From Pirellula sp. (GTDB taxonomy: Bacteria; Planctomycetota; Planctomycetia; Pirellulales; PNKZ01), in assembly GCA_013822735.1 (NCBI GenBank), contig PNKZ01000019.1:1-64000 (forward strand): 64,000 nucleotides of DNA, given 5' to 3'. Each line of letters starts with the position of its first letter. Position 1 is the first letter of the stretch. The notes under the pieces were generated by a model. That model was not told the origin of the DNA and did no database searches. It saw only the letters and a program-made list of their open reading frames with translations. The translations under genes were made by a program, and so were the position numbers. Shown here in pieces: positions 2,930-19,250 of the stretch.

Positions 2930-4326
2930 GCCAGAATATCCTTGACGACGGTGCCGTAGACGTCGGTCAGGCGGAAGTCGCGTCCGGCATAACGATACGT
3001 GAGCCGTTCATGATCGACACCGAGCAAGTGCAACAGGGTCGCATGCAGGTCGTGCATGTGGACTTTGTTCTCGACCGCTAGGTAACCGAACTCGTCGGTC
3101 GCGCCGTGGCTATAACCCGGTTTCACGCCGCCGCCCGCCATCCAGATCGTGTAGCCGTGGGGATTGTGATCGCGGCCCGGTGCACCGCGGTCGATCTGCG
3201 CGACGGGCGTGCGACCGAATTCTCCGGCACACAATACGAGCGTGTCCTCAAGCAGACCGCGACTTGAAAGGTCTTCGAGTAGTGCCGCGATCGGTCGATC
3301 CGTCTTGGCGGCGCTCTGCGGCAGCTCTTTTTCGATATCGCCGTGATGATCCCAATGATAGCCGGTGGAAACCTGTACGAACCGGACGCCGGCCTCGGCT
3401 AGTCGCCGCGCGAGCAGACATTGTCGTCCGAAGCCGTCGGTCGGCTCACTGCCGATGCCGTAAAGTTCGTGCGTGGCGGCGGTTTCGCGTGAAAGATCGA
3501 GTACTTCCGGAGCGACCGATTGCATTCGGTACGCCAACTCGTAGCTCGCGATCACGCCGTCGATCCGTTCGTCGCGCTCGGCCTGTTTGAGGTGCTCGCG
3601 ATTGAGCGCCTGGACGATGTCAAGTTGTTCGCGCTGCCGCGTCGCGCTCAAGCGAGCATCTTCGAGATAACGAATCTGCGGTAAGCGATCGGGCGTACCG
3701 GTCAACCGGATCGGAGTCGCTTGATGCTTCGCCGGCAGAAAGGCGTTGCCGTACAAGCGGACTCCGCCGTGCATCGAAGGATAATCGATGCTGACGAATC
3801 CGGGCATGTTCTCGTTCTCAGAACCGAGACCGTAATGCACCCAGGAACCGACGCTGGGGCGCACGAGGGCCGCCGTACCGCTATGCAGGTTGAGCACGGC
3901 TTGGCCGTGAGCCTCGCCTTCGGTGTGTAGGCTCTTGATGAAGCAGATCCGATCGACTTGCTTGGCCAGTTCGGGAAACAATTCGCTCACCCACTGACCG
4001 CACTCGCCGTACTGTCGCCAGTTCCATTTCGGGGCGAACACCTTGCCGAGTCGGTCGGGCCGAATAAGTCCGGGGAGATTAAAGGGAAGCGGTTTGCCGT
4101 GCTCTTTGACCAGACTTGGTTTGTAATCGAACGAGTCCATCTGCGACACGCCGCCGTGCATAAACAGAAAGATCACCCGTTTGGCGCGAGCCGGAAAGTG
4201 CACGGCTGACACGTTTGGCGCGGCACGTGCTGCTTCGAGCCCGGTCAATGCCAGGTAACCGAAGCCGCACGCCGCGGATTGCAGCATGCTGCGTCGCGAA
4301 CAGCGCGATGAGGAAGAAACATTCAT
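2926..4326 (-). CDS. DUF1501 family secreted protein
   Basis: A sulfatase-fold-like DUF1501 protein of 466 residues. The N-terminus (MNVSSSSRCSRRSML) is a twin-arginine leader with a hydrophobic core and Ala-rich cleavage region near residue 37. The family signatures GEFGRTP and a His-Asn-Pro-His stretch near the C-terminus are present; DUF1501 resembles alkaline-phosphatase superfamily enzymes but has no established reaction. A TTG at 4359 would give a longer form overlapping the upstream stop; I chose the ATG at 4326 because it sits directly before the twin-arginine signal. In planctomycetes DUF1501 genes normally follow DUF1549/DUF1553 genes, exactly as here (29-base gap), which suggests the two products act together in the periplasm. 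Confidence 0.93.
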   Translation of the reverse strand: MNVSSSSRCSRRSMLQSAACGFGYLALTGLEAARAAPNVSAVHFPARAKRVIFLFMHGGVSQMDSFDYKPSLVKEHGKPLPFNLPGLIRPDRLGKVFAPKWNWRQYGECGQWVSELFPELAKQVDRICFIKSLHTEGEAHGQAVLNLHSGTAALVRPSVGSWVHYGLGSENENMPGFVSIDYPSMHGGVRLYGNAFLPAKHQATPIRLTGTPDRLPQIRYLEDARLSATRQREQLDIVQALNREHLKQAERDERIDGVIASYELAYRMQSVAPEVLDLSRETAATHELYGIGSEPTDGFGRQCLLARRLAEAGVRFVQVSTGYHWDHHGDIEKELPQSAAKTDRPIAALLEDLSSRGLLEDTLVLCAGEFGRTPVAQIDRGAPGRDHNPHGYTIWMAGGGVKPGYSHGATDEFGYLAVENKVHMHDLHATLLHLLGVDHERLTYRYAGRDFRLTDVYGTVVKDILA

Positions 4327-4355
4327 GGCGAAGGAGGTCTCGGCGCGTTGGCGGT

Positions 4356-6797
4356 TCAATCTAGGAATTGAAACTGAGTGGAGCTCATGATCGCCTGACA
4401 GAGCTTGGCGAGATCATGGATCGTAGGTCCCGGCGGGCCTTCAAACTGACGCTGCAAGTAATCGGTTAACAACTGGCGTTCGGCGGCGGTCGGACGACGT
4501 TTGAGAAGCGACTCAAACGTTCGACTTACCAACGGCCCGATCTCCGTCGTCGGCTCAAGGGGCGCCAACCGCTCGGCCGTCGCCCGTGCTGCGTCTTGCA
4601 CGAACGGCGAGTTCAAGAAGTACAATGCCTGCGGAGCGACGGTCGTGACGGGGCGGCGGCCGGTCGACGTGCTCGGATCGGCGAAGTCGAACACCTGCAG
4701 GACGTCGGCTTCGAGATTGCGAATGATCGGCTGATACACGGTCCGCCGGGGATCGACCACTCCGAGCTCTGCGGCGTCATCGCCCGAGAGATCTTTCAGC
4801 GGCAGCGACGGCACGAGGCTGTCGGCCGGACTTAGATCGAGCCTTCCCGCCGCCAGCAACAGCGTATCGCGAATCTCCTCGGGCTCGAGACGCCGCTTGT
4901 TTTGCCGCCAAAGCAAGCGATTCTCGGGATCGACCTTCATCGCGTCGTCCGAATAGCAGGTGCTCATTCGATACGCTCGGCTGGTAACCAGTTCGCGGAC
5001 GAGCGGCTTCAGTCGCCATCCGCCGTCGACGAACTGCCGAGCTAGCCAATCGAGCAACTCGGGATGCGTGGGGAGCTCGCCGCGCGGGCCGACGTTGTCG
5101 ACGCTTCGTACAATTCCCTCGCCGAAGAGACGTTGCCAGACGTGATTGACGTAGACCCGCGCGGTCAGCGGGTTGTGACGCGACGTGATCCACTCGGCCA
5201 GCTCGCGCCGGCCGCTTTCGCGAGCCGATACGGTCGGCTGATCGGCATAGGCCGCGACTTGCAAGAACCCGCGCGGCACGATACCGCCCCGAGCCGACGG
5301 CACGCCTCGGACTCGCAGCGCTTCGTCGTGAGGCGTTGCCGATTCGCGAACCGCCTCGGCATAGGGCGGAAGTTGCGATTCCAGCTCCGCGTGACGCGCC
5401 GAATAGCGGGCGAGATCTGCACGCAGCTTCCGCAACTCATTCTCACGTTCAGGGTAAGCTGTTGTTATGGAGTTGCCGTCTTGGCCCGCTTCCAACGTCG
5501 CAATCTTCTTGGCCAGCTCGTATTTCTTCTGGCCCGACTTGACCCATTCGTAGCGATGCTCGGCAAGAAACTGCTGCAACTTTACATCGTTGCCGGATCC
5601 GAGTCCGCGACGCGACCAGTCACTTTCGTCTTCCTTGGCTCCTCCCAATCGATCGTCGAGCGTGACCGTGCTGCTGAAGATGCCTGCCAAGGCGTAGTAG
5701 TCGCGCTGCGGGATCGGATCGAACTTGTGATCATGACAACGGGCACACCCCAACGTCAGCCCCAGGATCGCCTTGCCGATCACGTCGATCTGTTCGTCGA
5801 CGACGTCGAGCGTGAGTTGTTCCTTGTCGAACTCGCCGAGCACTTTCGAGCCCAGCATCAAGAAGCCGGTGGCGATCAAGTTGTCGTCGCGCTCGGCTTG
5901 TGATTGGTAGGGAAGCAGGTCGCCGGCGATCTGCATCGTCAGGAAACGATCGACGGGCAGATCTTCGTTGTGCGCGGCGATGACCCAATTGCGATAGCGC
6001 CAGGCCTGCGGGAACGGCGGATTGAAACTCGAACCGTTACTGTCGGCGTAGCGCGCTAGGTCGAGCCAATGTCGGCCCCATTTTTCGCCGAATTGCGGCT
6101 CGGCCAGCAAGCGATCCGCCGCGGCTTCGACGGCGGTCTGCAGATCGCGTTGTGCCGCTTCCTCAAATTGAACGATCTCATCGGCCGACGGCGGAAGCCC
6201 CGTCAGGTCGTAACTCAAGCGCCGCAACAATCGCCGCGGCTCCGCGTCGGGCGCAGGCTGCAACTGCTTCGCCTCGAGCGCGGAGAGTAAAAAACGATCG
6301 CTCGTACGTTTCGCCCAATCGGTCGTCGTCGGTTGCGGAACGGCCGGCGACCGCACGGGCCGGAAAGCCCAAAAGTTCCGTCCCGCCGCTATGTCGATTC
6401 CCGCCGGACGAACCATCGATGCGTCCACCGTACGCGGATCCGGGGCGCCGCGCAGCACCCATTCGCGCAAGATCGCGATCTCCGCCGCAGGCAGCTTTCC
6501 CGCCGGCGGCATCTCGTACCCTTCTTCGCGATATTCGACGGCGCGGATCAACAGTGATTCGTCGGGCCGACCCGACTCGATCGCGGTACCGGAATCTCCG
6601 CCGCGTTGCCAACCGCCGCGCGAGTCGAGCGATAAACCTCCTTTGGCCTTGGTCGCGGAGTGGCATTCCAAGCATCGCGTCACGAGTAGCGGCCGCACCT
6701 TCGTTTCGAAGAACTTCATGTCTGCGGCACTCGGTTCGGCGGCACGAAGCTCCGTCACCAGCAAAAGACTCCCCAAGAAAAGTGCGACCGACTTCAT
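4356..6797 (-). CDS. DUF1549/DUF1553 diheme secreted protein (PSD1 type)
   Basis: The 813-residue protein starts with a Sec leader (about residues 1-19) and a planctomycete cytochrome-c domain carrying C42-x-x-C45-H46, followed by DUF1549 with a second heme motif (CARCH within GCARCHDHKFDPI) and a C-terminal DUF1553 domain ending in the family-typical FQFLD. I chose the ATG at 6797 over a longer reading because the leader starts there and the ATGA at 6794-6797 overlaps the stop of the upstream SGNH hydrolase gene. It forms the standard DUF1549/DUF1553-DUF1501 pair with the next gene. The biochemical role is unknown; two covalent c-hemes in an exported protein imply electron transfer. Confidence 0.94.
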   Translation of the reverse strand: MKSVALFLGSLLLVTELRAAEPSAADMKFFETKVRPLLVTRCLECHSATKAKGGLSLDSRGGWQRGGDSGTAIESGRPDESLLIRAVEYREEGYEMPPAGKLPAAEIAILREWVLRGAPDPRTVDASMVRPAGIDIAAGRNFWAFRPVRSPAVPQPTTTDWAKRTSDRFLLSALEAKQLQPAPDAEPRRLLRRLSYDLTGLPPSADEIVQFEEAAQRDLQTAVEAAADRLLAEPQFGEKWGRHWLDLARYADSNGSSFNPPFPQAWRYRNWVIAAHNEDLPVDRFLTMQIAGDLLPYQSQAERDDNLIATGFLMLGSKVLGEFDKEQLTLDVVDEQIDVIGKAILGLTLGCARCHDHKFDPIPQRDYYALAGIFSSTVTLDDRLGGAKEDESDWSRRGLGSGNDVKLQQFLAEHRYEWVKSGQKKYELAKKIATLEAGQDGNSITTAYPERENELRKLRADLARYSARHAELESQLPPYAEAVRESATPHDEALRVRGVPSARGGIVPRGFLQVAAYADQPTVSARESGRRELAEWITSRHNPLTARVYVNHVWQRLFGEGIVRSVDNVGPRGELPTHPELLDWLARQFVDGGWRLKPLVRELVTSRAYRMSTCYSDDAMKVDPENRLLWRQNKRRLEPEEIRDTLLLAAGRLDLSPADSLVPSLPLKDLSGDDAAELGVVDPRRTVYQPIIRNLEADVLQVFDFADPSTSTGRRPVTTVAPQALYFLNSPFVQDAARATAERLAPLEPTTEIGPLVSRTFESLLKRRPTAAERQLLTDYLQRQFEGPPGPTIHDLAKLCQAIMSSTQFQFLD

Positions 6798-7771
6798 GGC
6801 GACTCCTTCGTGGTCGCAAGTCGATGATCGCAATCTTGCCAGGTTTCCCAGGCTACCGTCTCCAAATAGCGGGCCGTCGGCTCGTCGACCGTCGCGTCGC
6901 GACTCTTGGCCATGTTGCGATACATCCACTTGGGCATCTTCGCCTGATACGCATCGGGTTTGAATTGAGCGACCAATTGGTCGACGACGGCCGTTTCTTG
7001 CTCACTCGCCGGTTTAGACAATCCATGCGGCCAGACATGGTAGTGGCGCGGCAGCGCGCCGACCGGGGACTCGCGCGTCAAAGCGGCGTAGAAACAAGCC
7101 AAGTTCAAGAAGTGTCCGAGGTCTCCCGGATGAGCACCGTCTTGGGGATGTTGCAAAGCCAAATCGGGTCGCTCACGAAATACGCGCGCCCAAGCCGACG
7201 AACACGGCGCGAACGTGCGAATGCGGTTTTTCACCGCCAACTCGAAGATTCGCTCGCGTCCTTCGGCTTCACGGTCGGTCTTACCCCAACCCATCTCATA
7301 GAAAACAGGTTCGCCGCCGGCGGCGCGAATCGCTGCACAATATTTCGTTACTGCATCAGCATGGGCTTGTCCGTCGCCCGTCGGATCATCGTCTCCCATG
7401 ATGAACCGACACACGACCATCAGCGAAACAAAGTCGAATCGCTCGTCGCGCACTTTTTCCAGAAACGTCTGCGTCGGCTTGACGCCGTATTCGTAATTCT
7501 TGAATCCCGGCTCGGCGTAAATGCGAATATCGCTGCCGCTGCGGCCGACGATCTCGGCAGCGACCTTACGGCCCGGCTGTTGATAAATCCGGCGGTCAAC
7601 GAGCTTCGCAACCTCGCGGGGAAGATCGTTCCAGTAGGCACTGCTACTGCCGGCGAAGAGTAAGCGGATCGGTGCGGCTTCGTCGGCCATGCATGGCGGC
7701 GACGAGACCGCGGCCGACACGACGAGCGCGCTGCAGATGAGGCGAATTGAATAGTTGCAGCGAGGCATCAT
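6794..7771 (-). CDS. SGNH/GDSL-type hydrolase, secreted
   Basis: A 325-residue exported protein with a leader of about 29 residues. The block-I-like sequence FAGSSSAYWND (about residues 39-49) places a Ser at the nucleophile position and DGAHPGDLGH near residue 215 matches the block-V Asp-x-x-His, so the fold is SGNH-like. Such enzymes deacetylate or de-esterify polysaccharides; the substrate here cannot be told. The block III Asn is not obvious, so activity is not certain. The gene overlaps the following DUF1549/DUF1553 gene by ATGA, and is separated from the upstream DUF1552 gene by 173 bases, the largest gap in the cluster, which may hold an internal promoter. ATG at 7768 is an equally possible start. 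Confidence 0.85.
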   Translation of the reverse strand: MMPRCNYSIRLICSALVVSAAVSSPPCMADEAAPIRLLFAGSSSAYWNDLPREVAKLVDRRIYQQPGRKVAAEIVGRSGSDIRIYAEPGFKNYEYGVKPTQTFLEKVRDERFDFVSLMVVCRFIMGDDDPTGDGQAHADAVTKYCAAIRAAGGEPVFYEMGWGKTDREAEGRERIFELAVKNRIRTFAPCSSAWARVFRERPDLALQHPQDGAHPGDLGHFLNLACFYAALTRESPVGALPRHYHVWPHGLSKPASEQETAVVDQLVAQFKPDAYQAKMPKWMYRNMAKSRDATVDEPTARYLETVAWETWQDCDHRLATTKESP

Positions 7772-7944: not shown

Positions 7945-9297
7945 TCAATTCAATCCCTTCAATTCGCCGACGCTATCCCCGAATCTTTCCAACGGTACGC
8001 CCATACGGCGGGCGAGGGAAAGATAGAGATTACAGGCACGTTGTTCCTCGGCGGGCCGCCGGCCTGCGTCCACACAACGTCCGCCGGCGATGGTGCCGCC
8101 GCCGTGGCCGGCGAGAATCATCGGGAGGTTGCGGCCGTCGTGGCTGTCGCCGTTGAACATGTTGCTGCCGAATTGGAGCATCACGTTGTCGAGCAGCGTG
8201 GTACCTTCCCCTTCGTCCACTTGCTTCATTTGTCCCATCAGATAAGCGAGTTGCTCGACGTGGAACTGATTGATGCGTTGATACGAAGCGAGCTTCTTCG
8301 GGTCTTCCTTATGATGCGAAATGCCGTGCAACTGTTCGTTGAGCACGCCGTCGAGAAATCCGAACTTCATGTGCGACACGTCACGGTTGAAGATCAGCGT
8401 GGCGACGCGGGTCTTGTCCATACGCCAGGCGAGCAGGATGAGATCGAGCATCATCCGCATATGTTCGCTTACATCTTGCGGTAGTTCGGCGGCGGGGCGT
8501 TTCATATTCGGCTTGGCCAAAGTAGGCCGCCAGCCTTCGAGGCGCTCTTCCTTAGCCGCACGCTCGATGCGCAGTTCGAGATCGCGCACGCTTTCGAGAA
8601 AAGCGTCGAGCTTCTGCCGATCGTGCGCGCCGAGGTCGCGACGCACGTCTTTCGAATGTGCGAGCACGGCATCGAGCACGCTCTTGTCGCGCAGTAAACC
8701 ACTGGTGTCGAAGAGCCGGTCGAAAACAGCGCGTGGATAAACCTCGGGGGCAATGGGCGTGTTTTTCGATGACCACGAGACAGTGCCGTAATAAACGCTC
8801 GGTACGCCGCTACGAAGTCCCGACTCGGCAGGCTCGACCGCCAGTACGAGGCTAGGCACCGAAGTTTCCTTGCCGGCGTGTCGCGCGATGACCTGATCGA
8901 TCGACTCGCCCCCTTCGGGAATCAAGGTCTCGCGAAATTGCGCACCGCTCAAGTAATTGGAAAACAACGGCCAGTGCGGACCGCTGGTATTGTTGTAGAC
9001 GTGTAGGTTACGCAAGACCGTAATATCGCGTTTGAACGGGGCGAGCGGCTGCAGCGTGCTGGAAAGCTCCATCGCGTCGCCGTCGCCGTTCGCCCGCCAC
9101 TCGTGCGGATTCACGCCGTTGGCGAACAGCAGGCAACCATAGCGCACAGGCGCCTTGGCCTTCATTGCGGCAGTCGTCGATTCCCCCACCGCGCGAGCCT
9201 GCGACCAGACGAGCGAAGGCAGCCACGGCAGGGCAAGCGCGGCTCCGGCTCCGCGCAGCAAGGTGCGTCGGGTGAGAACTGCGGGAGGGTTCTTCAT
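7945..9297 (-). CDS. DUF1552 family protein, twin-arginine exported
   Basis: The 450-residue product begins with a clear twin-arginine leader (TRRTLLRG followed by an Ala/Leu core up to about residue 32). The body matches DUF1552: an early YGCLLFANGVNPHEW stretch, a central LRDLELRIE-type helix, an HMKFGF motif and the C-terminal MLQFGSNMFNGDSHDGRNLP signature, which resembles the DUF1501/alkaline phosphatase fold. Its start is only 3 bases after the stop of the upstream DUF1592 gene, the usual DUF1592-DUF1552 couple of planctomycetes. The function is undetermined. Confidence 0.93.
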   Translation of the reverse strand: MKNPPAVLTRRTLLRGAGAALALPWLPSLVWSQARAVGESTTAAMKAKAPVRYGCLLFANGVNPHEWRANGDGDAMELSSTLQPLAPFKRDITVLRNLHVYNNTSGPHWPLFSNYLSGAQFRETLIPEGGESIDQVIARHAGKETSVPSLVLAVEPAESGLRSGVPSVYYGTVSWSSKNTPIAPEVYPRAVFDRLFDTSGLLRDKSVLDAVLAHSKDVRRDLGAHDRQKLDAFLESVRDLELRIERAAKEERLEGWRPTLAKPNMKRPAAELPQDVSEHMRMMLDLILLAWRMDKTRVATLIFNRDVSHMKFGFLDGVLNEQLHGISHHKEDPKKLASYQRINQFHVEQLAYLMGQMKQVDEGEGTTLLDNVMLQFGSNMFNGDSHDGRNLPMILAGHGGGTIAGGRCVDAGRRPAEEQRACNLYLSLARRMGVPLERFGDSVGELKGLN

Positions 9298-9300
9298 AAA

Positions 9301-12300
9301 TTACTCCGGACGACGTTTCATGAATTGCTGACTGGTGACGACGGCTTCAACAAGGCCGGAGAACTTGTAGCTGTTCTGCGTGAGTGAGTTATTCATCCGC
9401 TCGAGCAGCGCGTGATCGCCGGGAAGCACCGCGCGACCAAGAGCGTAACCAAGCAATTTGCGGTTGAAATGAGCGAAGACTTCGTCCCGATGCTCGACCA
9501 GATACTCCTTCAATCCGACGACGCCGTTCAACTGCACGCCGTCGTGCGTCGTCTCGCTACTGACAATCGGGTCACCACTACGGTCGGCAGTGCGACGGCG
9601 GCCGATCGGATCGAAACCTTCCAGAGCAATACCGAACGGATCGATGCGGGCATGGCACGCTGCGCAAGCGTCGTCGGCTCGATGACGCGCGAGTTGTTCG
9701 CGAATCGACAATCCCGATGCATCCTGCTCATCTTCCGAGATCTGTCCCGCGTTGGCCGGCGGCGGAGGAACGCGACGCCCGAGCAACTGCTCGACAATCC
9801 AGACGCCGCGCTGCACCGGGCTCGTTCGCAAGGGGACCGAAGTCTTTGTGAGAAACAGCGCCATGGTCGGCAGGCCGCCGCGCCCGGACGGCAATGCAAC
9901 CCGCTCGAAGCCGGTCGGCTCCCTTTCCAGACCGTAGAGTTGTGCCAGGTCGCCGTTTGCGAAGGTGTAGTCCGCATCGATGAGCGCGGTGAGCGGCTGG
10001 TCGTTTTGGATGAGATCCGTCAGGAAAAGGGTGACCTCTTCGAGCATTGCATTTCGTAGAGCAGGTGTGAATTCGCTGAAACGCTTTTCATCGGGCCCGG
10101 TGAAGTTGCCGAAGTCGCCAAAGCCCCACAGTTGCGCGGCAAAGTCGGTCGCTAACGACGCTGCGCGCGGGTCTTTCAGCATGCGTTTCGCCTGATCGGC
10201 GAGAATCACCGGATCACGCAGCTTGTCGGCCGCGGCAAGTTCAAGCAGTTCGTCATCAGGTATGCTTGCCCAGAGAAAAAACGAGAGCCGCGTGGCGAGT
10301 GCATACGAGCCAAGCGGCAGCGGTGCTTGGGGATTGTTTGCACAGACGACAAACGTGTCCGCCTCGCGACCGCGATACAAAAAGTCGCGCGATAACAGCA
10401 CCGTCAGAAGCGGTACTTTGATCGCACTGTCGAAGCTCACGCCCTGCGCTGAGGCATCGCGGTAAAGTTTCAAGAGGTTTGTCGTCTCAACCTCTCTTAC
10501 CGGACGACGCCACGCCTTCGTCGCAAACGCACTGAGCCACTCGCGCGCCTTGCTTTCGACGGCGTCGTTCGCGGCCGGCTGCGCGAGGGCGACGAGGCGG
10601 TCCTCCATCACCCGCAGCTCCGCGAGGTCTTCGGGCGTCGCATTCCGCCGCACTTCGGCAACGGTGTAGTAGTAGGGGGCGTTGGGTTCGGCTTTATCGG
10701 CGGTATGGTCAGGCCATGGGCCGCCGACGGCTTCGAGGCTCGTTCGCGTCCAGTCGGCGAAGATGTTGCGCTCGGCGTTGAGGCCGAGCTTGGTCTGCAA
10801 CGCCTCGGAGACATTGCGTTTGCGCAGCAATTGACTGCGCTCTCGGTTCGGATCGGCCTGTGTTTGGCCCGCGGGAGCTTTGCCGCCGAAAACGAAGCGC
10901 CCCGGAACGAAACTTTGTGAAGCCGGCTTCTCCTTGAGCACGAGTGCCTGCACGCTCGCGAACTTGGTGCGGTTTTTGTCCAGCCGGAAGTCCACCTCGA
11001 ACACGACGGCGTTCTCCGGCACGGCAAGTTTCAGCGCACCCGGCGGACGCTGGCCCACGGCGTCGGCTTCAAGCTTCGGCATATTCGCGCCGTCGAGCCC
11101 CCACGGAAACGGACGGCCGCTGTTCGCTCCGACGATCTTCACCACATCCTGCCACGGTTTGGCACTGCCATCTTTGAAAATAAATCGACCGTTGTGCCAC
11201 AGACCATACTCATCGACGGCACCGTCACCCGCATCGGTGAGAATAAGGAACAGCTCCTTCGCGTCGCCGAGGTCGATGCGGAAAGGCCAGCGGCCCTCGT
11301 CTTTCGCCGCCGCCAGCACCTCCTCCTTGGCCTCGCGAAAGCTGATTTCGTACGGCGGTGCGAAGTCGCCTTTGTTCTCTGCGAGTGCCGTGCCGCGCTT
11401 GTCGGTCGGAATGGCGACGCAAGTCGCGCGCAGTTTCGCGTCGCTCACATCGGCCGGAATCGCACGCCAAGCCTGGGCCCAATCCGCAAAAGGGGACTTC
11501 GTCTCGTCGTCATTCAAAATACGCGTCCACTTTTCCAACGCGACCGGCGCAAGCTTTTCATCCGGCTCTTTGCGGCCATGTGTCGCGCGCCACGCCGCTT
11601 CGAGATAGACTGCGTCGCTGAAACCAAGCCGCGCCTGCAGATCATCACGGTGAAGTCGTCCCCACTTCTGTTGTTGCATCACGTACCAGTCGATGATGTC
11701 GTCGGTCGCTTCTTTGATCGCCGCCTTCCGATCATCCACCGCTTCACGCGGCATCGAACGCCACACCAACCCGTCATGCGGCGACACGCGCAGATACTTC
11801 AGCGCGCCCTTCGCCGCCTCGATATACTTCTCAAACTGCGCCGCGTTCATGCCCTGCGCTTCGCCGACGTTGGCAAAGCCCTCGCCCGCGCCTCCCTCGT
11901 TCGGCAGGAACTCGCCCGCTTGAGTCACCATCGCTCCGCTCAAGTCGCGGATCACATTGCGGTATTCATTCCGCGTCAGTCGGGGCATCACCACCAAGCC
12001 CGGGTCGCCTTCCTGTGCGGCGGCGACGGCGTTCATTTCGGCTTTGAGCCACGTTAGCAACTGTTCGCGTTCCGCGGGGCTGAGGCTGCTCTCGGCGTCG
12101 CTCGGCGGCATCGCACCGGTCGAAACAGCTTCAACTACGCGTGTCAGCAACCTAAAGTCCGACCGCAACGCGTGCGGCTGGGCGACGACTTGGTTCAGGT
12201 TCAGTTCCGCCTCGGCCTGATCGGCGTTGTGGCAAGCAGTGCAGTGCGTCCGCAGCAACGCGACCGGCTCGGCGGCCGCTGCGTAAGCGCTCAACGATAG

Positions 12301-12324
12301 CCAGACGAAGGCGGCGCGCATCAT
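9301..12324 (-). CDS. DUF1592-family diheme secreted protein, enlarged
   Basis: A 1007-residue relative of the protein at 113-2929, with a leader (about residues 1-18), first heme motif C28-x-x-C31-H32, DUF1587, then DUF1595, DUF1592, DUF1588 (second motif CAACH followed by ARIDPFGIALEGF) and DUF1585 at the end. Between DUF1587 and DUF1595 is an insertion of roughly 400 residues, rich in Trp and charged residues, unlike that of the other DUF1592 protein in this window. The ATG at 12324 was preferred because it starts the leader and overlaps the previous stop as ATGA (12321-12324). It is followed after 3 bases by a DUF1552 gene, its normal partner. Confidence 0.93.
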   Translation of the reverse strand: MMRAAFVWLSLSAYAAAAEPVALLRTHCTACHNADQAEAELNLNQVVAQPHALRSDFRLLTRVVEAVSTGAMPPSDAESSLSPAEREQLLTWLKAEMNAVAAAQEGDPGLVVMPRLTRNEYRNVIRDLSGAMVTQAGEFLPNEGGAGEGFANVGEAQGMNAAQFEKYIEAAKGALKYLRVSPHDGLVWRSMPREAVDDRKAAIKEATDDIIDWYVMQQQKWGRLHRDDLQARLGFSDAVYLEAAWRATHGRKEPDEKLAPVALEKWTRILNDDETKSPFADWAQAWRAIPADVSDAKLRATCVAIPTDKRGTALAENKGDFAPPYEISFREAKEEVLAAAKDEGRWPFRIDLGDAKELFLILTDAGDGAVDEYGLWHNGRFIFKDGSAKPWQDVVKIVGANSGRPFPWGLDGANMPKLEADAVGQRPPGALKLAVPENAVVFEVDFRLDKNRTKFASVQALVLKEKPASQSFVPGRFVFGGKAPAGQTQADPNRERSQLLRKRNVSEALQTKLGLNAERNIFADWTRTSLEAVGGPWPDHTADKAEPNAPYYYTVAEVRRNATPEDLAELRVMEDRLVALAQPAANDAVESKAREWLSAFATKAWRRPVREVETTNLLKLYRDASAQGVSFDSAIKVPLLTVLLSRDFLYRGREADTFVVCANNPQAPLPLGSYALATRLSFFLWASIPDDELLELAAADKLRDPVILADQAKRMLKDPRAASLATDFAAQLWGFGDFGNFTGPDEKRFSEFTPALRNAMLEEVTLFLTDLIQNDQPLTALIDADYTFANGDLAQLYGLEREPTGFERVALPSGRGGLPTMALFLTKTSVPLRTSPVQRGVWIVEQLLGRRVPPPPANAGQISEDEQDASGLSIREQLARHRADDACAACHARIDPFGIALEGFDPIGRRRTADRSGDPIVSSETTHDGVQLNGVVGLKEYLVEHRDEVFAHFNRKLLGYALGRAVLPGDHALLERMNNSLTQNSYKFSGLVEAVVTSQQFMKRRPE

Positions 12325-14222
12325 TTCGGCAACTCCGTCAAATCCATGAGAAACAGGCCGTAACCGACGCCGGCCTCGTCGCCTGCCTTTCCAATCTGAA
12401 AGGCCATCCAACGGCCGTCATCGCTGACGACGTAGTTCGTCGCCTTGTAACCGGGGAAGTCGAGAAACCGCGTTAGTCGCTGCGGGGCTTGCGTACCGTC
12501 GAACCAGATCCGCCAAGCGTCGGCCATCGCCCAGGGATTTTTCGGCGTACTCCGACCCCGTTCGACGAGCGTACTTCGGCCGTCCGGAAAGATGCCCTCC
12601 ACCTCTTCGTACAGATCAGGGCTGTCGGTGAAGTTGATTAGCTTGTTCGCGGCAATATCGAACAGGTAGCCGTCCGAGTTGTGGCCGTTCTCAACCAGAT
12701 ACGCCGTGACGGTGAGCAGTGTTCCGTCGGGAGTGAAGTTCTGCGTTTCGATCATCCGGGGCCGTCGGCCGGTCGGGAAGTCCTCGCTAGTCAGAATGAG
12801 CCGAGCATTGTGGATGCGTGGCTTACCGTCTTGGTATTCCAACTCGCCGAGTGAGATACCGGTTTGGCGAAACTTGCCTTCGATGTCGTGCGTCCACGCG
12901 ATTTGTAACTTGGTCCGCGAAACGGCCGGACCTTCGACCATCTGCACGCTGAGCGGCACCGGCGGTTTCGTACCGGACTTGTCGAGGACCCACGACATCG
13001 CGTGCTGCCGCGCCTCGGTGCGGGCCTTCTTATCCGTCATGTCGAACGTCTTGTCCGGTCCGGTGAGCAGGATGTCGCCGTTGCTCAGATACATCGCCCG
13101 GTTGAAGCCGTGATGCTTGAAATGCTGACTCAAGCAGCGGATCGCGCCGGTGGCCGTTTCATACTCCATCACGTCGCCAAACTGCTTACTGAGAAATAAG
13201 ATTCGTCGGCCGTCGTGCGAAAAGTCGGCCCGCTCGCCGTAGCGTGCGATTTGCCGAATGTGCGGCGGCAAATGATCGGCCGGATTGCCGAGCGACGAAG
13301 TTCCCGGTGATGCGACGGCCGCCGAGGAGGTGAGATATCCGGAGTCTTTCAGCCATTCTGCGGCGTGGCTGGGCCAGTGCGTGACAGGCGCGGCGGTCGA
13401 TCGTAAACCATACCCGTGGCCCCCGCGCGCGAAGACGTGCAACTCGGCCGGCACGCCGACTTTTTTTAATTCGCTCGCCAAAGCCAGCGAGTTTTGTACA
13501 GAGACGTGATCGTCGAACGCATGAACGAAGAACATCGGCGGGGCGTCCTTCGCGACGGCGATATACTCGCGCAGCTTCGCCTCGCCTTTTTCGATCAACC
13601 CGCCGGGATAGACCAGCATCGCAAAATTCGGTCGCCAAGGCACACTATCGATTGCATCCGTCAACTCATACGGACGTTGCTCGAAGAGCGCAGTGAGTCC
13701 CGCCGTCTCGCCGCCGGCCGAGAATCCACAGATGCCGATCCGCTGCGGATCGATCTGCCACTCGGCGGCCTTGCTGCGCACCAGACTCATCGCCCGTTGG
13801 GCGTCTTGCACGGCCGCGATCCAGCGTTTCTCCGGGTCGCGAAACGGCACGCGGTATTTCAAGACGATGCCGGTGACGCCGAGCGAGTTCAGCCATTCGG
13901 CGACCTCCGTCCCTTCGAGGTCGTAGGCGAGAATGTTGTGCCCGCCGCCGGGGCAAACAATGACGGCGGTCCCGTTGCTCTTTTCCGGCGCCGGGCGATA
14001 GACGGCAATCTGAGGCGTCGAGACGTTGCCGAGTTTGATGATCCGTCGACCGGCGATCAGCTTGTCTTCCGGCTTCGTCAGATCGGCTTCAGGCGGCAGT
14101 TCCTTCGTTTCACCCGGCGGCTTGCCTGGCCAAACGTCAAGCACGACCGGGTCCGTCGCAGCGACCGGGGCGGCGATAATCGCCGTTAATAGGAGGGAGC
14201 TAAAGAAGTACGCGAGACTCAC
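12321..14222 (-). CDS. Secreted alpha/beta hydrolase (acetyl-esterase type) fused to a TolB-like propeller
   Basis: Residues about 25-295 form an alpha/beta hydrolase of the BD-FAE/xylanase-associated esterase kind: oxyanion region PGGGHN, nucleophile elbow G166-F-S168-A-G170, a later Asp in FDDHVS and the catalytic His in GGHGYG. Residues about 320-633 are a separate repeat domain with phrases such as FSHDGRRILF, FTPDGTLLTV and VSDDGRWMAF, characteristic of TolB/WD40-like PD40 blades. An N-terminal leader of about 22 residues predicts export. The start is GTG at 14222, overlapping the upstream stop as GTGA. The likely role is de-esterification of a polysaccharide, with the propeller binding a partner or substrate; this is inference from the domains. 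Confidence 0.85.
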   Translation of the reverse strand: MSLAYFFSSLLLTAIIAAPVAATDPVVLDVWPGKPPGETKELPPEADLTKPEDKLIAGRRIIKLGNVSTPQIAVYRPAPEKSNGTAVIVCPGGGHNILAYDLEGTEVAEWLNSLGVTGIVLKYRVPFRDPEKRWIAAVQDAQRAMSLVRSKAAEWQIDPQRIGICGFSAGGETAGLTALFEQRPYELTDAIDSVPWRPNFAMLVYPGGLIEKGEAKLREYIAVAKDAPPMFFVHAFDDHVSVQNSLALASELKKVGVPAELHVFARGGHGYGLRSTAAPVTHWPSHAAEWLKDSGYLTSSAAVASPGTSSLGNPADHLPPHIRQIARYGERADFSHDGRRILFLSKQFGDVMEYETATGAIRCLSQHFKHHGFNRAMYLSNGDILLTGPDKTFDMTDKKARTEARQHAMSWVLDKSGTKPPVPLSVQMVEGPAVSRTKLQIAWTHDIEGKFRQTGISLGELEYQDGKPRIHNARLILTSEDFPTGRRPRMIETQNFTPDGTLLTVTAYLVENGHNSDGYLFDIAANKLINFTDSPDLYEEVEGIFPDGRSTLVERGRSTPKNPWAMADAWRIWFDGTQAPQRLTRFLDFPGYKATNYVVSDDGRWMAFQIGKAGDEAGVGYGLFLMDLTELPK

Positions 14223-15205
14223 TTCACTTCTCCTAGAACGACGCGATTAATGCCGTTGGCCGATAGCGATGGCGAGTCGGTCCACGACTTTCCATCCGCA
14301 GAGAAAGCCATCTTGCCCGGCCACGAGGAGGCGATGAAACGAATGCCGTCGCTCCATTTCACACTACCGCGCGATGGGGCGAACTCGGTCTTCGCCCACG
14401 CAACGCCGTCGGTCGAGCGGTACACACCCTGGCCGCTGCCGACGAGAAACGCCTCGCCGGTCCAAACCAGCCAACCCAGCTTGACGTCAGCATCGACGAC
14501 GACCGACTCCCACTGCAGGCCGTCGGCCGATGAGATCAGATCGGCATCGCCTGGAGACGTGAGCATCAAGAACTTGCCGGCTCCGAAGACGATCGTGCCC
14601 TGGCCGGGCAGGTCGGTCCGCTCGCCGACGATCGTTTCGCCGTCTTTCGACGTGATCGACCACGAGATCGGCTTGGCCGTACCGTCCGTCGCTTTTTGTT
14701 GTCCGTTTCCTACGAAGACGAACAAACCGTTGCCGAACGCGCCGTGACGAAAGTGCGTCAGACCGCGGGCCGTGATCGCCGCTCCGTTCTTCCAAGTTTC
14801 GGCATCGCCCGACCACATCAGTTTTCCACTGGGATAGGACGACGTCCCGACGATGAAACGATCGTTACCGTAGACGATAGGGTTAATGCGCCCCTTGGCC
14901 TTGTAGGTTTCCTTCCATTCACGACCGTCGTCCGAGACAAGGATGTGGCCTGCCCCGGTCGCGCCGCCTCCGCCGCCTCCGACCACGACGAAACGGTTCT
15001 GCGCGAAGACCGCGCTCATCAGGTTGTTGCCGTCGTCTCCGCCGGGCTGCGCCCACTCGGCGGTGATCTCCCACTTCAAGCCGTCGGTCGAGACCATCCG
15101 TCGACCGCCATAGCCGACGGCAACCCAGCGCTCTTCGGCGCGGGAGAAGTTCGGCCATGCCGCTCCTACGATCGTCAGCAAGAATAGGGTCCAGGCAACC
15201 TTCAT
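14219..15205 (-). CDS. Secreted seven-motif beta-propeller (BNR/sialidase-like)
   Basis: The 328-residue protein has a Sec leader (about residues 1-23) and then seven regularly spaced Asp-box-like motifs of the form S-x-D-G-x-x-W (STDGLKW, SDDGREW, SGDAETW, SKDGETI, SADGLQW, STDGVAW, SADGKSW), one per predicted blade, so a seven-bladed propeller is expected. I see no sialidase catalytic Arg triad or Tyr/Glu pair that would let me call an enzyme; a binding role is as likely. It lies in the middle of the secreted-protein operon, 24 bases after the upstream DUF1552 gene, with GTGA overlap into the esterase-propeller gene. Confidence 0.8.
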   Translation of the reverse strand: MKVAWTLFLLTIVGAAWPNFSRAEERWVAVGYGGRRMVSTDGLKWEITAEWAQPGGDDGNNLMSAVFAQNRFVVVGGGGGGATGAGHILVSDDGREWKETYKAKGRINPIVYGNDRFIVGTSSYPSGKLMWSGDAETWKNGAAITARGLTHFRHGAFGNGLFVFVGNGQQKATDGTAKPISWSITSKDGETIVGERTDLPGQGTIVFGAGKFLMLTSPGDADLISSADGLQWESVVVDADVKLGWLVWTGEAFLVGSGQGVYRSTDGVAWAKTEFAPSRGSVKWSDGIRFIASSWPGKMAFSADGKSWTDSPSLSANGINRVVLGEVK

Positions 15206-15229: not shown

Positions 15230-16522
15230 CTAGAGTTCGGTCAAAACACCGGTACTGTCGGCGAAACGATTGACTCCGGCCTGCGACTGTTGCAGCAACG
15301 TGAGCCAAAGATCGGCCAGCGGTCGCTTCCCTTCGTAGTGCAGATGACGGCCCGGCGAGATGCTGCCGCCGGCGCGACCTGCCAGTAATACTTGCAAATC
15401 GGTATAATTGTGTGAGTCGCCGTCGCTGAGGCCGCTGCCCATCGCGACACAACAGGCGTCGAGCAGCGTTCCTTCCCCTTCGTGGATCGTGGCCAATCGT
15501 TCGACCACGTACGCGAAGAAGTCGACGTGAAAGCGATCGATCTTGGTCAGGGCCGCTTTGGCGTCGTCTCCCTTGGTGTGCGTCAGCACATGATGATTCT
15601 GAGGCTTGTCGAACAGACCGTGATACATCCGCGGCGAGTCCCAGCGCTCGGGATCGATGACGAGCGTCGCCACGCGCGTTGCATCGTGTTGAAAGGCCAG
15701 CACGACCAAGTCGGCCATCAGGCGCAGATAATCTCCTCGACGTTCGGGTGTTCCCAGAGGCTCCGCCATTTGCTGCGGTGCGTGACGCCGAGCCGAACTC
15801 TCGGCCATTTCGATCCGGCGCTCGGCGGTACGCACGCTATTCAGATACTCGTCCAGCTTCGCTTGATCGTCTCGCCCGAGCTTTTTGCGTAGCGACTGGG
15901 CATCGGCCAGCACCACGTCGAGCACGCTGCGCGTTGGTTCGACTTGTGACTTGCCGAACAGCCGTTGAAACACGGACCGGGGGTTCTTTTCGACATTGGC
16001 CGCGTAGCCCGGTCCATACCACGAAATGCATTCGAAGTACTTCGTTTCCTTGTTGTCGGCGAAGTCGTTGCAACTTAGTTCGAGCGACGGCAAACGTGTA
16101 TCGCCACCCAGCCGCCGTGCGAGCAGCTGGTCGAGTGTGACGTTCGTCGGAAAACCGCCGTCGAGCGTTTCGCTCGGCGGAGAACTTGTCAGCCAACAAG
16201 CGCCACACTGAGCGTGGACGCCCGTGCCGGCGACGAACTGTCGATCCAGCCCGGTGACGAGCGTCACCTGCTCGCGAACCTTGGCCAACGGTTCGAGAGC
16301 GGGCGTTAGCTCCCAATCGCGGCCGGTCTGTTGCGGCACAAACGTCGCTTGACGGTATCCGTTCGGCGTGTAGATAAAAGCATATCGCCGCGGCGGCGTC
16401 GACGGCGCCGTCGTGAATGCTCGACCCAAGCGCAACGACTCCAGCCATGGCAGCGCCAACGTAACACCTAATCCACGAAGCCAATTGCGGCGTGATAATG
16501 CAGCGGGACCGATGTGATTCAT
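15230..16522 (-). CDS. DUF1552 family protein, twin-arginine exported
   Basis: A second DUF1552 protein (430 residues) with twin-arginine leader (LSRRNWLRG, hydrophobic to about residue 34), an early YAFIYTPNGY stretch, a central LRKKLGRDDQAKLDEYLNS helix and the C-terminal CCVAMGSGLSDGDSHNYTDL signature. Unlike the copy at 7945-9297 it is not directly preceded by a DUF1592 gene; instead a 110-residue unknown gene ends two bases before its ATG. The two DUF1552 paralogues in one cluster may pair with different DUF1592 proteins. Function unknown. Confidence 0.93.
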   Translation of the reverse strand: MNHIGPAALSRRNWLRGLGVTLALPWLESLRLGRAFTTAPSTPPRRYAFIYTPNGYRQATFVPQQTGRDWELTPALEPLAKVREQVTLVTGLDRQFVAGTGVHAQCGACWLTSSPPSETLDGGFPTNVTLDQLLARRLGGDTRLPSLELSCNDFADNKETKYFECISWYGPGYAANVEKNPRSVFQRLFGKSQVEPTRSVLDVVLADAQSLRKKLGRDDQAKLDEYLNSVRTAERRIEMAESSARRHAPQQMAEPLGTPERRGDYLRLMADLVVLAFQHDATRVATLVIDPERWDSPRMYHGLFDKPQNHHVLTHTKGDDAKAALTKIDRFHVDFFAYVVERLATIHEGEGTLLDACCVAMGSGLSDGDSHNYTDLQVLLAGRAGGSISPGRHLHYEGKRPLADLWLTLLQQSQAGVNRFADSTGVLTEL

Positions 16523-16524
16523 GG

Positions 16525-16857
16525 TTACGGCACCTCGAACATCAGTTCGGCTACTTCTGACTTCGCAGCAACCTGAAACGTGGATAAAAGGGCCCGCGAG
16601 ACTTCCCGGTACTCCGGCGGCTCGACAAAGCGCGGAATCAAAGGACGGAACTCTGACGACGGAATTTTCACGTGCCGCGAAACGTCCGGCGATTTTTCTG
16701 CTTCATCGCCGTCGACCGCTCGCCCGAAGTTGCCGCCGAAAGTCCGACTAGGCGGCTGGACGGCCAACATGGTGCGCAACGGGGCACGCCGGTTAGAACG
16801 AAAACGCGCGGGAGCGAGACGGTTAGCCGTCAGTGAGTGGGGGGCGGGATTGGGCAT
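16525..16857 (-). CDS. Small unknown protein at the head of the minus-strand operon
   Basis: This 110-residue reading frame has no family I recognise, no leader and a basic N-terminal half; the C-terminal part (about residues 70-110) is more protein-like, ending VAELMFEVP. Two contextual facts argue that it is real. Its TAA stops 2 bases before the ATG of the DUF1552 gene. Its ATG lies exactly 8 bases after the element GCGTGGGATT-N8-AGCGGCTAAT, the same element and spacing seen before the divergent sigma factor gene. It could be a leader peptide gene, a regulator, or a remnant of a larger DUF1592-type partner. If it is not translated, the region is the 5' leader of the operon. Confidence 0.5.
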   Translation of the reverse strand: MPNPAPHSLTANRLAPARFRSNRRAPLRTMLAVQPPSRTFGGNFGRAVDGDEAEKSPDVSRHVKIPSSEFRPLIPRFVEPPEYREVSRALLSTFQVAAKSEVAELMFEVP

Positions 16858-16865
16858 CGGATATA

Positions 16866-16893
16866 ATTAGCCGCTTAAGAAGAAATCCCACGC
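16866..16893 (-). promoter_or_regulatory. Divergent element copy 1 (candidate ECF promoter)
   Basis: Read on the minus strand this is GCGTGGGATT, eight bases, then AGCGGCTAAT, followed by eight bases and the ATG at 16857. The same two ten-base blocks at the same spacing occur in opposite orientation at 17044-17071. The layout fits a -35-like (GTGGGA) and -10-like (GCTAAT) pair of an ECF sigma factor; transcription would then begin close to the ATG and give a nearly leaderless mRNA. An activator or repressor operator is the alternative. Confidence 0.7.
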
Positions 16894-17043
16894 TAATAAC
16901 TCGAATTCACTAATTATTGCGGCACAGTCGTGAAGCCAACCCTAAACCACATCACCACCGGACGCCGCGCTCGTTATCAATGTCTTAAAGGTGTGTGCAT
17001 GTAAAAGTTCACTGCCGGTTCGGAGGTGGAGATTCTATTTTCC

Positions 17044-17071
17044 GCGTGGGATTCGGCTTCGAGCGGCTAAT
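17044..17071 (+). promoter_or_regulatory. Divergent element copy 2 (candidate ECF promoter)
   Basis: Plus-strand copy of the element at 16866-16893: GCGTGGGATT, eight unrelated bases, AGCGGCTAAT, then exactly eight bases to the ATG of the ECF sigma factor gene at 17080. Conservation of both blocks and all spacings, with different bases in between, indicates selection. The simplest reading is autoregulation of the sigma factor together with control of the opposite operon. Confidence 0.7.
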
Positions 17072-17079
17072 ACCAGGAA

Positions 17080-17616
17080 ATGAACGACGCCATCCAGCCT
17101 CCGCCCCCTTCGGCTGACTTTCTCGCGCAGGTGACCCAAGCGCAGCGGTCCATGTACGCCTTCATTCTGTCGCTAGTTTGGCGACCGGCCGATGCCGACG
17201 ACGTTCTGCAAGAAACCAACCTAGTTCTGTGGCGCAAAGCGGCCGAGTTCGATGCACGACAGAACTTTATGCCCTGGGCACTGCGGATCGCTCAGCTCCA
17301 AGCCATGGCGCACTTCAAGAAACAACGTCGTCGACCGCTGCTCGACGACGGACTCCTTAGTCGGCTGGCCGAAGAATCGATCGCCGAGCAAGATGAGATC
17401 AACGTCCGCCGGCAAGCTCTCTCGTCTTGCTTGCAGAAATTGTCTGAAGACCATCGGACTTTGATTGCGAAGCGTTACGAACCGGAGGCGTCGGTCAATG
17501 AGATGGCGTCCGAACGCGGCATAAGTCCCAAATCCCTATCCGAAAAGCTGCGACGAATTCGCGCCTTGCTCTTGGAATGCGTCGATCGGACCGTTGCGGT
17601 GGAGATGCGAGAATGA
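17080..17616 (+). CDS. ECF sigma factor, Rhodopirellula/Verrucomicrobium type
   Basis: A 178-residue sigma-70 family factor with only the two ECF domains. Region 2 (about residues 13-84) holds DADDVLQETNLVLWRK and FMPWALRIAQ; region 4 (about 110-165) is a helix-turn-helix with LSEDHRTLIAKRYEP and GISPKSLSEKLRRIR. The 17-residue N-terminus is Pro-rich. The gene overlaps the following FecR-type gene by ATGA (17613-17616), the classic sigma/anti-sigma coupling. It faces the ten-gene secreted-protein operon across a spacer with duplicated 28-base elements, which makes that operon its probable regulon. Confidence 0.93.
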   Translation: MNDAIQPPPPSADFLAQVTQAQRSMYAFILSLVWRPADADDVLQETNLVLWRKAAEFDARQNFMPWALRIAQLQAMAHFKKQRRRPLLDDGLLSRLAEESIAEQDEINVRRQALSSCLQKLSEDHRTLIAKRYEPEASVNEMASERGISPKSLSEKLRRIRALLLECVDRTVAVEMRE

Positions 17617-18950
17617 ACCAGCCCGTCGATCGTGAATTGGAGGAACTGCTGAACCGCCTCGTTGACGGCGAATTCTCTGCCGAAGATGAATGCCTATTAC
17701 AAGCCAAACTCGATAGTGACGCGGCGTCTAGGCGTCATTATCGCCATTTCATGCAACTGCACGGCGCGCTGCACTGGGATTACGTCATTGCCGCCGCTCA
17801 ATCGACTTCGCCTCGCTTGATCGGAAAGCAGCCCGTGCCGCGCAACGAGCGACCGAGAATGTTGGCGTGGTGGGGATCCCTCGCGGCCATGTTGATACTC
17901 GCCGTCGGCTGGGCCTGGTTGTCGAGCGGTGGTAGAACACCCGATCGCCCGACAATTGTTTGGGTCGAAACAGTCGATGGCGCCGTCGTCTGGAGCGGCG
18001 ACGTAGACCGACGTTCGAATCTAACGAGCGGCGAACAATTGCTGGGGGGCACGCTGACGCTCGAAGGGGATGCAGCCTCGATTCAGCTGCGGTTTCGGGA
18101 CGGTACGCTCCTTACTTTGTACGGCGATGCGGAGTTGGATTTCGAAGACGAGGGACAGAAGCGACTCGATCTGAAGCGCGGACAGTTGTCGGTCGATGCC
18201 CGACCGCAACCGAAGAACAAGCCGATGCTCGTCCGTACGCCGACGGCCGAGATGGAAGTTGTCGGCACCGTCTTCACCTTATCGGCTGAACCTCAGTCGA
18301 CGCAACTCAACGTCGAGTCCGGCAAGGTACGAATGCGACGACTGGTCGATGGTCGGACGGTCGACGTCGATCAAGAACGGACGGCCGTTGCGACGTTCGA
18401 CTCGGTCGATGTGATCTCTCCTGCCGCTCCTGCCGCTCCGCCCCTCAGTTTTCGCCGCACGTTTTCGCAGGCGATTCCGGTGCACTGGCGCGGCGAGTGG
18501 ATGCCTCCCGAGGAACACGCACCGGGCCGCGTTCGTTTCGGGCCGCTGGTGGCCCATCGCCTTCAGGACGGCACTCCGGTAGTGCAAGCCGGTATGACGA
18601 TTCGCGATCCCGTGGCATACATGCAGCCGATCGTCCAACTGACGTCCAAGAGCATCGTCACGGTGCGTTACCGTTGCGAGAAGCCGACGCGATTTCGGAT
18701 CATGCTCGGAACGAATTACCCTGGCGGGCGTTTCGGCGGTAACTTTCAAACGTGGGTCTCGACCGAAGACGGCCGACCGACGGCCGACGGTTGGCGCGAA
18801 GTTTCGCTCAAGTGCGGCGATTTTCCGCCGATGATCGAACGCTTTTCAAAGCTGCCTGAGCCCGGCAACGTTTCGCTGATCTTATTGTCGACGAAAGAAC
18901 CCACGAGCGATCTCGAAGTTAGTGAGATCGCAATCGGAGCGGAACGTTGA
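17613..18950 (+). CDS. FecR-domain membrane anti-sigma factor
   Basis: The 445-residue protein has an N-terminal cytoplasmic part (about residues 1-80) with LNRLVDGEFSAED and LHGALHWDY, typical of anti-sigma partners of this ECF group, one membrane segment at about 84-103, and a periplasmic FecR domain (about 130-240) with LRFRDGTLLTLYGDAELDF and TAEMEVVGTVFTLS. The C-terminal 165 residues form an additional predicted beta domain of unknown type that could sense ligand. The ATG at 17613 overlaps the sigma gene stop and was preferred to an upstream in-frame ATG. By family it should hold the sigma factor inactive until an extracytoplasmic signal arrives. Confidence 0.9.
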   Translation: MNQPVDRELEELLNRLVDGEFSAEDECLLQAKLDSDAASRRHYRHFMQLHGALHWDYVIAAAQSTSPRLIGKQPVPRNERPRMLAWWGSLAAMLILAVGWAWLSSGGRTPDRPTIVWVETVDGAVVWSGDVDRRSNLTSGEQLLGGTLTLEGDAASIQLRFRDGTLLTLYGDAELDFEDEGQKRLDLKRGQLSVDARPQPKNKPMLVRTPTAEMEVVGTVFTLSAEPQSTQLNVESGKVRMRRLVDGRTVDVDQERTAVATFDSVDVISPAAPAAPPLSFRRTFSQAIPVHWRGEWMPPEEHAPGRVRFGPLVAHRLQDGTPVVQAGMTIRDPVAYMQPIVQLTSKSIVTVRYRCEKPTRFRIMLGTNYPGGRFGGNFQTWVSTEDGRPTADGWREVSLKCGDFPPMIERFSKLPEPGNVSLILLSTKEPTSDLEVSEIAIGAER

Positions 18951-19139: not shown

Positions 19140-19176
19140 ACCGTATTGTGCGAACGGAAACCGCTCGGCACGAAAG

Positions 19177-19250
<74 letters not shown>

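Follow-up and report, generated by a model that had tools for sequence, protein, structure and literature searches.

A probable pair of autoregulated ECF promoters between a sigma–FecR gene pair and a divergent exported-protein operon in Pirellula sp.

Between an ECF sigma factor gene and a divergent run of ten open reading frames in Pirellula sp., a 28-base element occurs twice, in opposite orientation. What is this pair for, and how did a second copy come to face the operon? We analysed the window, a stretch of 64,000 nucleotides that contains both copies (Table 1), together with the genome and the relatives of the sigma factor. As the preliminary description had it, each copy consists of two blocks separated by N8 and ends 8 bases before an ATG (ACCAGGAA between element 1 and the ATG at 17080 on the plus strand; TATATCCG between element 2 and the ATG at 16857 on the minus strand). 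The copies are identical at 21 of 28 positions in register; both 10-mers are the same, and the 8-nt gap differs at seven of its eight positions.

Table 1. Positions of the elements and genes in the window
Feature	Coordinates	Strand	Assignment	Basis
Element 1	17044..17071	+	probable ECF promoter of the sigma gene	sequence, inverted pair, conservation before close sigma orthologs
Element 1, -35-like block	17044-17053	+	GCGTGGGATT, followed by the 8-nt gap	
Element 1, -10-like block	17062-17071	+	AGCGGCTAAT	
Element 2	16866..16893	-	second, divergent copy; probably the promoter for the minus-strand operon	
Element 2, -35-like block	16884-16893	-		
Element 2, -10-like block	16866-16875	-		
Sigma gene	17080..17616	+	ECF sigma factor, 178 aa, sigma70 r2 and r4	Pfam, tree
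FecR gene	17613..18950	+	FecR-type anti-sigma	Pfam FecR, E 1.7e-15; AlphaFold model
tRNA-Asp (GTC)	19176-19250	-	downstream of the FecR gene	
110-aa ORF	16525..16857	-	probable truncated, decayed copy of the FecR C-terminal domain	BLASTP
Gene 2	15230..16522	-	DUF1552 protein, first intact gene	Pfam PF07586, E 3.5e-79
Gene 3	14219..15205	-	putative exported beta-propeller-like protein	ORF; weak DUF6242
Gene 4	12321..14222	-	alpha/beta hydrolase (BD-FAE / peptidase S9 type)	Pfam
Gene 5	9301..12411	-	planctomycete cytochrome c, PSCyt1/DUF1587/1595/1592/1588/1585	
Gene 6	7945..9297	-	second DUF1552 protein	
Gene 7	6794..7771	-	exported SGNH-like protein	assigned by eye; Pfam gave no match
Gene 8	4356..6929	-	PSCyt1-DUF1549-DUF1553 protein	
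Gene 9	2926..4359	-	DUF1501 protein	
Gene 10	113..2929	-	PSCyt1/DUF1592/1588/1585 cytochrome c protein	

Intergenic DNA often contains inverted repeats, and such a pair could in principle be a mobile or structural repeat that regulates nothing, or the product of plain chance. However, when the 222-nt intergenic region was simulated 2000 times with a Markov-1 model, no 28-nt inverted match better than 20/28 arose, so the observed match was not reached once. With up to three mismatches allowed, 0.05 sites of GCGTGGGATT-N8-AGCGGCTAAT are expected in the window and two were found, both exact. The genome scan for this pattern that had been suggested earlier returned elements 1 and 2 as the only zero-mismatch sites in the whole 6.9-Mb genome, and a relaxed pattern, CGTGGGA-N10-14-GGCTAA, likewise matched these two alone genome-wide, with zero hits for the reversed control. 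No RNA family was found in the element region. Given also that the element is conserved alongside a single sigma clade in different families (see below), we give this explanation practically no weight.

The protein encoded to the right of element 1 has sigma2 and sigma4 domains only, joined by a short linker, and its cognate anti-sigma is encoded alongside, as is characteristic of ECF factors (Pfam Sigma70_r2, E 2e-11, above the cut-off; Sigma70_r4_2, E 8e-4, below the curated cut-off). The start of the anti-sigma gene overlaps the sigma stop (ATGA). In the structural model of the anti-sigma, N-terminal helices (residues 6-62) and a membrane helix near residues 82-102 precede a FecR/PupR-like middle domain, the arrangement of FecR-type anti-sigma factors, and this middle domain matches the C-terminal signalling domain of PupR (6ovk, Z 16.7). 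Residues 276-444 are modelled as a jelly roll like those of CBM11, CBM29 and CBM30 (Z about 9-11), and the anti-sigma looks like a glycan-binding sensor. One subclade of the anti-sigmas (L106, L107 and L108) carries at its C-terminus not the jelly roll but an unrelated domain that by eye resembles LamG; the sensor domain has apparently been exchanged while the sigma clade stayed the same.

If the element is the promoter of this particular sigma, it should follow the sigma through evolution. Sigma homologs were gathered from samples at family, order and phylum level and from contigs of genomes. The element, with a CG[T/C]GGGA start, a length of 25-27 nt and a -10-like [C/T]TAA end, lies upstream of 10 of the 10 clade sigmas examined (54-100% identity: the window, L030/L051, L031/L052, L032, L053, the second copy in G261, L017, L079, L081 and L112); in an eleventh, L080, the upstream sequence is cut by the contig end, yet GGCTAAT precedes the gene. 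The element is absent from about 70 sigma homologs at greater distance, and among homologs at no more than 48% identity the pattern is unmatched except for one unconvincing reverse-strand match (L072, CGGGGGATT). A profile of the clade sites gives at least 17.1 for each of the eight clade members to which it was applied, and no more than 13.8 for 71 others; because it derives from these very sites, independent evidence comes only from the low values outside the clade. The next-best score outside the clade belongs to L084, which keeps the -35 block and has GAATAT as its -10. In the tree, a branch supported at 98/91.5 sets the element-bearing sigmas and L080 apart from the rest. One genome encodes both L081, a sigma of 57% identity that has the element, and a 45% paralog, L117, that lacks it.

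The preliminary description had tied its proposal, an ECF-type promoter pair of this sigma itself, to conservation before orthologous sigma genes, and the element is in fact conserved before all sigmas of at least 54% identity with usable upstream sequence. Its presence throughout the clade and its absence from distant homologs support that proposal at the level of sequence. The element tracks the sigma clade and not the neighbouring genes, as predicted for a cognate sigma promoter, and a bipartite motif conserved before the sigma gene across the clade and absent outside it is the mark of an autoregulated ECF system.

Several observations on the wider family stand beside this result. A sister ECF clade (L088, L089, L091, L092, L094 and L097) has CGTTAGATT-N11-ATCTAA before its sigma genes, with the same 26-nt geometry; this hints at a wider promoter family and, with the genomes all from one genus, is not significant alone. 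In three genomes of the window's own genus (G004-G006) no sigma exceeds about 34% identity, and the close relatives occur in other families and orders, a distribution suggesting horizontal spread of the sigma locus. The L030 sigma region is identical to contig C133 of G215, from the window's own order, and the record title of L030, Candidatus Kuenenia, looks wrong.

Divergent copies are not peculiar to the window. A second, divergent element precedes DUF1559-type genes in L030, L031 and L032 (a label given by a conserved N-terminal pilin-like motif, not by Pfam) and a gene for an exported LRR-like protein in L111, which is the L081 region. Promoters facing apart are thus recurrent in the clade, with changing divergent cargo. 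On contig C21 of G120, the sigma–FecR clusters L031 and L032 lie in opposite orientation (13243 plus, 29201 minus), each with a divergent DUF1559-type gene. For targets farther afield, the loose pattern CGNGGGA-N10-15-CTAA showed no excess over control in eight genomes, and among the eleven extra sites examined, several of them outside long ORFs, there were no convincing further targets; we therefore claim no wider regulon.

Could the pair instead be the site of a separate DNA-binding regulator that acts on both genes? An inverted pair placed between divergent genes is a typical form of such a site, and the -35 departs from the canonical ECF box. However, the element follows one sigma clade while neighbouring genes vary among relatives, a common regulator gene beside it was not seen, the plus copy stands without a divergent one in L079, L017, L053 and the second G261 locus, and, counted from the sigma ATG of the window, the two blocks sit close to -35 and -10. 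We consider a regulator site very unlikely. As to the boxes, the classical AAC/CGT form is not obligatory in later ECF classifications, and the spacing of the element is somewhat short for an ECF promoter. ECF promoters of the classical form carry AAC, regarded as typical, in the -35 box, with CGT in the -10 box (PMC8103513); CGTGGGATT at -35 and GGCTAAT at -10 do not follow this form.

The position of the element also bears on the transcript. Nearly leaderless transcripts had been proposed, and by spacing this holds for the sigma genes of the window, L030, L031 and L032, in which 7-8 nt separate the -10 from the ATG: a start about 7-8 nt past the -10 would fall on or beside the ATG, so the right transcript of the window is predicted to be nearly leaderless. 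It does not extend to the other clade members, in which the distance is roughly 12-15 nt (L079, L081, L112) or the leader longer (L017, L053), nor to the divergent DUF1559-type genes of relatives, which have longer leaders, some with a purine-rich site. Leaderless transcription would thus be local to the window subclade.

To the left of element 2, ten co-directional, closely packed ORFs run along the minus strand from 16857 down to 113. The ten-gene operon of the preliminary description therefore stands as a run of packed ORFs, but its first member appears to be a fragment of an anti-sigma gene and not a new gene. This 110-aa ORF aligns with residues 342-438 of the window FecR protein at 34% identity over 97 aa without gaps (BLASTP, E 2e-15; E 7e-11 in a genome search), with an alignment score of 138 against at most 62 for shuffled versions. 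Its next-best matches are to the corresponding domain in FecR proteins of the clade; matches in G053 and G054 (E 0.004-0.008) have an uninformative context. In a tree of FecR C-termini the branch of the ORF is long, and the tree neither dates its split nor fixes its place beside the window FecR.

Does this ORF still encode a functional small protein, perhaps the C-terminal domain of the anti-sigma in free form, with a modulating effect on the system? The frame is open, starts 8 nt from the element and stops 2 nt before the DUF1552 ATG, and the differences by codon position (46/38/61) lean to coding constraint. On the other hand, only the latter part of the jelly roll is left, the first strands being absent; there is neither a signal nor a membrane segment, 5 of the 12 residues invariant in the family are lost, and the coding score falls just below the lowest of 61 in-frame chunks of known genes. 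A working protein is therefore unlikely in our estimate. The ORF is best read as a decaying fragment of a FecR-type anti-sigma, with a codon-position pattern that would point to earlier coding constraint.

The gene order in relatives suggests where this fragment came from. L112 has its genes in the order sigma, FecR, DUF1552, SGNH, and in L030-L032, L109 and L110 the sigma–FecR pair is followed by PSC and DUF1552 genes. The plus strand of the window has no such PSC/DUF1552 operon after FecR; its minus strand has a promoter copy, a FecR fragment and DUF1552, and FecR occupies the matching place before DUF1552 in L112. Furthermore, gene 2 of the window is 60% identical to the gene directly behind sigma–FecR in L112, and gene 7 is 63% identical to the gene after DUF1552 there. 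Most likely, we infer, the left unit derives from a second, inverted promoter–sigma–FecR–DUF1552 copy that would have lost the sigma gene and most of FecR and kept the promoter; the opposite-orientation clusters of G120 show that inverted duplicates exist. DUF1552 relatives at 53-65% identity occur in genomes without the clade sigma or the element in the flanks fetched, so the gene family as such is not tied to this sigma. The link between operon and sigma rests on the element, the fragment and the L112 arrangement, and on these grounds the minus-strand operon is very likely a target of this sigma.

If the unit arose in this way, element 1 alone might function, with element 2 a decaying leftover of the lost sigma–FecR copy and the operon driven from elsewhere. 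The ORF behind element 2 is indeed a decayed relic. Against this, both 10-mers have stayed identical while the gaps diverged, as expected under selection, no sigma-70-type promoter was found between 16400 and 17200, and relatives keep divergent copies before intact genes; a defunct element 2 seems to us fairly unlikely.

We therefore hold it to be highly probable that the two elements are cognate, autoregulating ECF promoters, serving sigma–FecR on the right and the exported-protein operon on the left, the latter most likely descended from an inverted copy. The membrane-bound anti-sigma, with its carbohydrate-binding-like jelly roll outside the membrane, would release the sigma factor, and polymerase carrying this sigma would recognise CGTGGGATT and GGCTAAT as -35 and -10. 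Transcription would then run rightward through its own sigma–FecR gene pair and leftward through the exported cytochrome c/DUF1552/DUF1501 operon, where the transcript would start in the anti-sigma relic and run for about 330 nt before DUF1552, the first gene that is intact. Promoter activity, the transcript starts and direct control by this sigma are predictions from the DNA itself.

A bolder reading, to which we give somewhat less than an even chance, is that the left unit is the fossil of a promoter-preserving rewiring, in which an inverted sigma–FecR–operon duplicate lost its sigma and anti-sigma while the cargo stayed under the surviving sigma. Only the promoter copy would have been kept, with a readable anti-sigma stub remaining as transcript leader; the order of these rearrangement steps we infer from the sequences. 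The relic would then illustrate how such operons can change hands yet keep control.

The planctomycete setting gives the element its interest. Planctomycete genomes encode dozens of ECF sigma factors, with 37 counted in R. baltica (PMC2754498), and the papers that our literature search covered report no mapped promoters for them. The clade-specific element thus offers a concrete, testable target for one planctomycete sigma, and would tie the poorly understood PSC cytochrome, DUF1552 and DUF1501 exported proteins to one signal pathway.

The kind of system is already known, namely a group-specific, autoregulated ECF promoter; what is new here is the relic of an anti-sigma as the first ORF of a divergent operon. 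As in autoregulated ECF operons such as E. coli rpoE, the sigma gene is followed by a membrane anti-sigma gene with an overlapping start, a common motif precedes the sigma gene and the target, and the motif is specific to one sigma clade. The window differs from the rpoE type in a -35 without AAC, a GGCTAAT -10, a short gap, leaderless spacing, and a second copy that faces an operon opening with an anti-sigma relic. With the FecI–FecR and PupR iron systems it shares the FecR-type anti-sigma and the modelled likeness to PupR. However, it has an additional CBM-like C-terminal jelly roll and planctomycete cytochrome c/DUF1552 targets with no TonB receptor seen in the operon, and its sigma appears to be autoregulated, whereas FecI types usually are not (PMC8103513). 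A parallel in target type comes from R. baltica, where the passage on ECF factors in PMC2754498, citing Studholme et al., gives the PSD1/PSC2 protein RB10051 as the predicted target of the ECF factor RB10049. In both cases an ECF factor is paired with a PSD/PSC-type protein gene as its proposed target; that passage gives no promoter element for RB10049, whereas in the window a conserved element ties the sigma gene to the operon.
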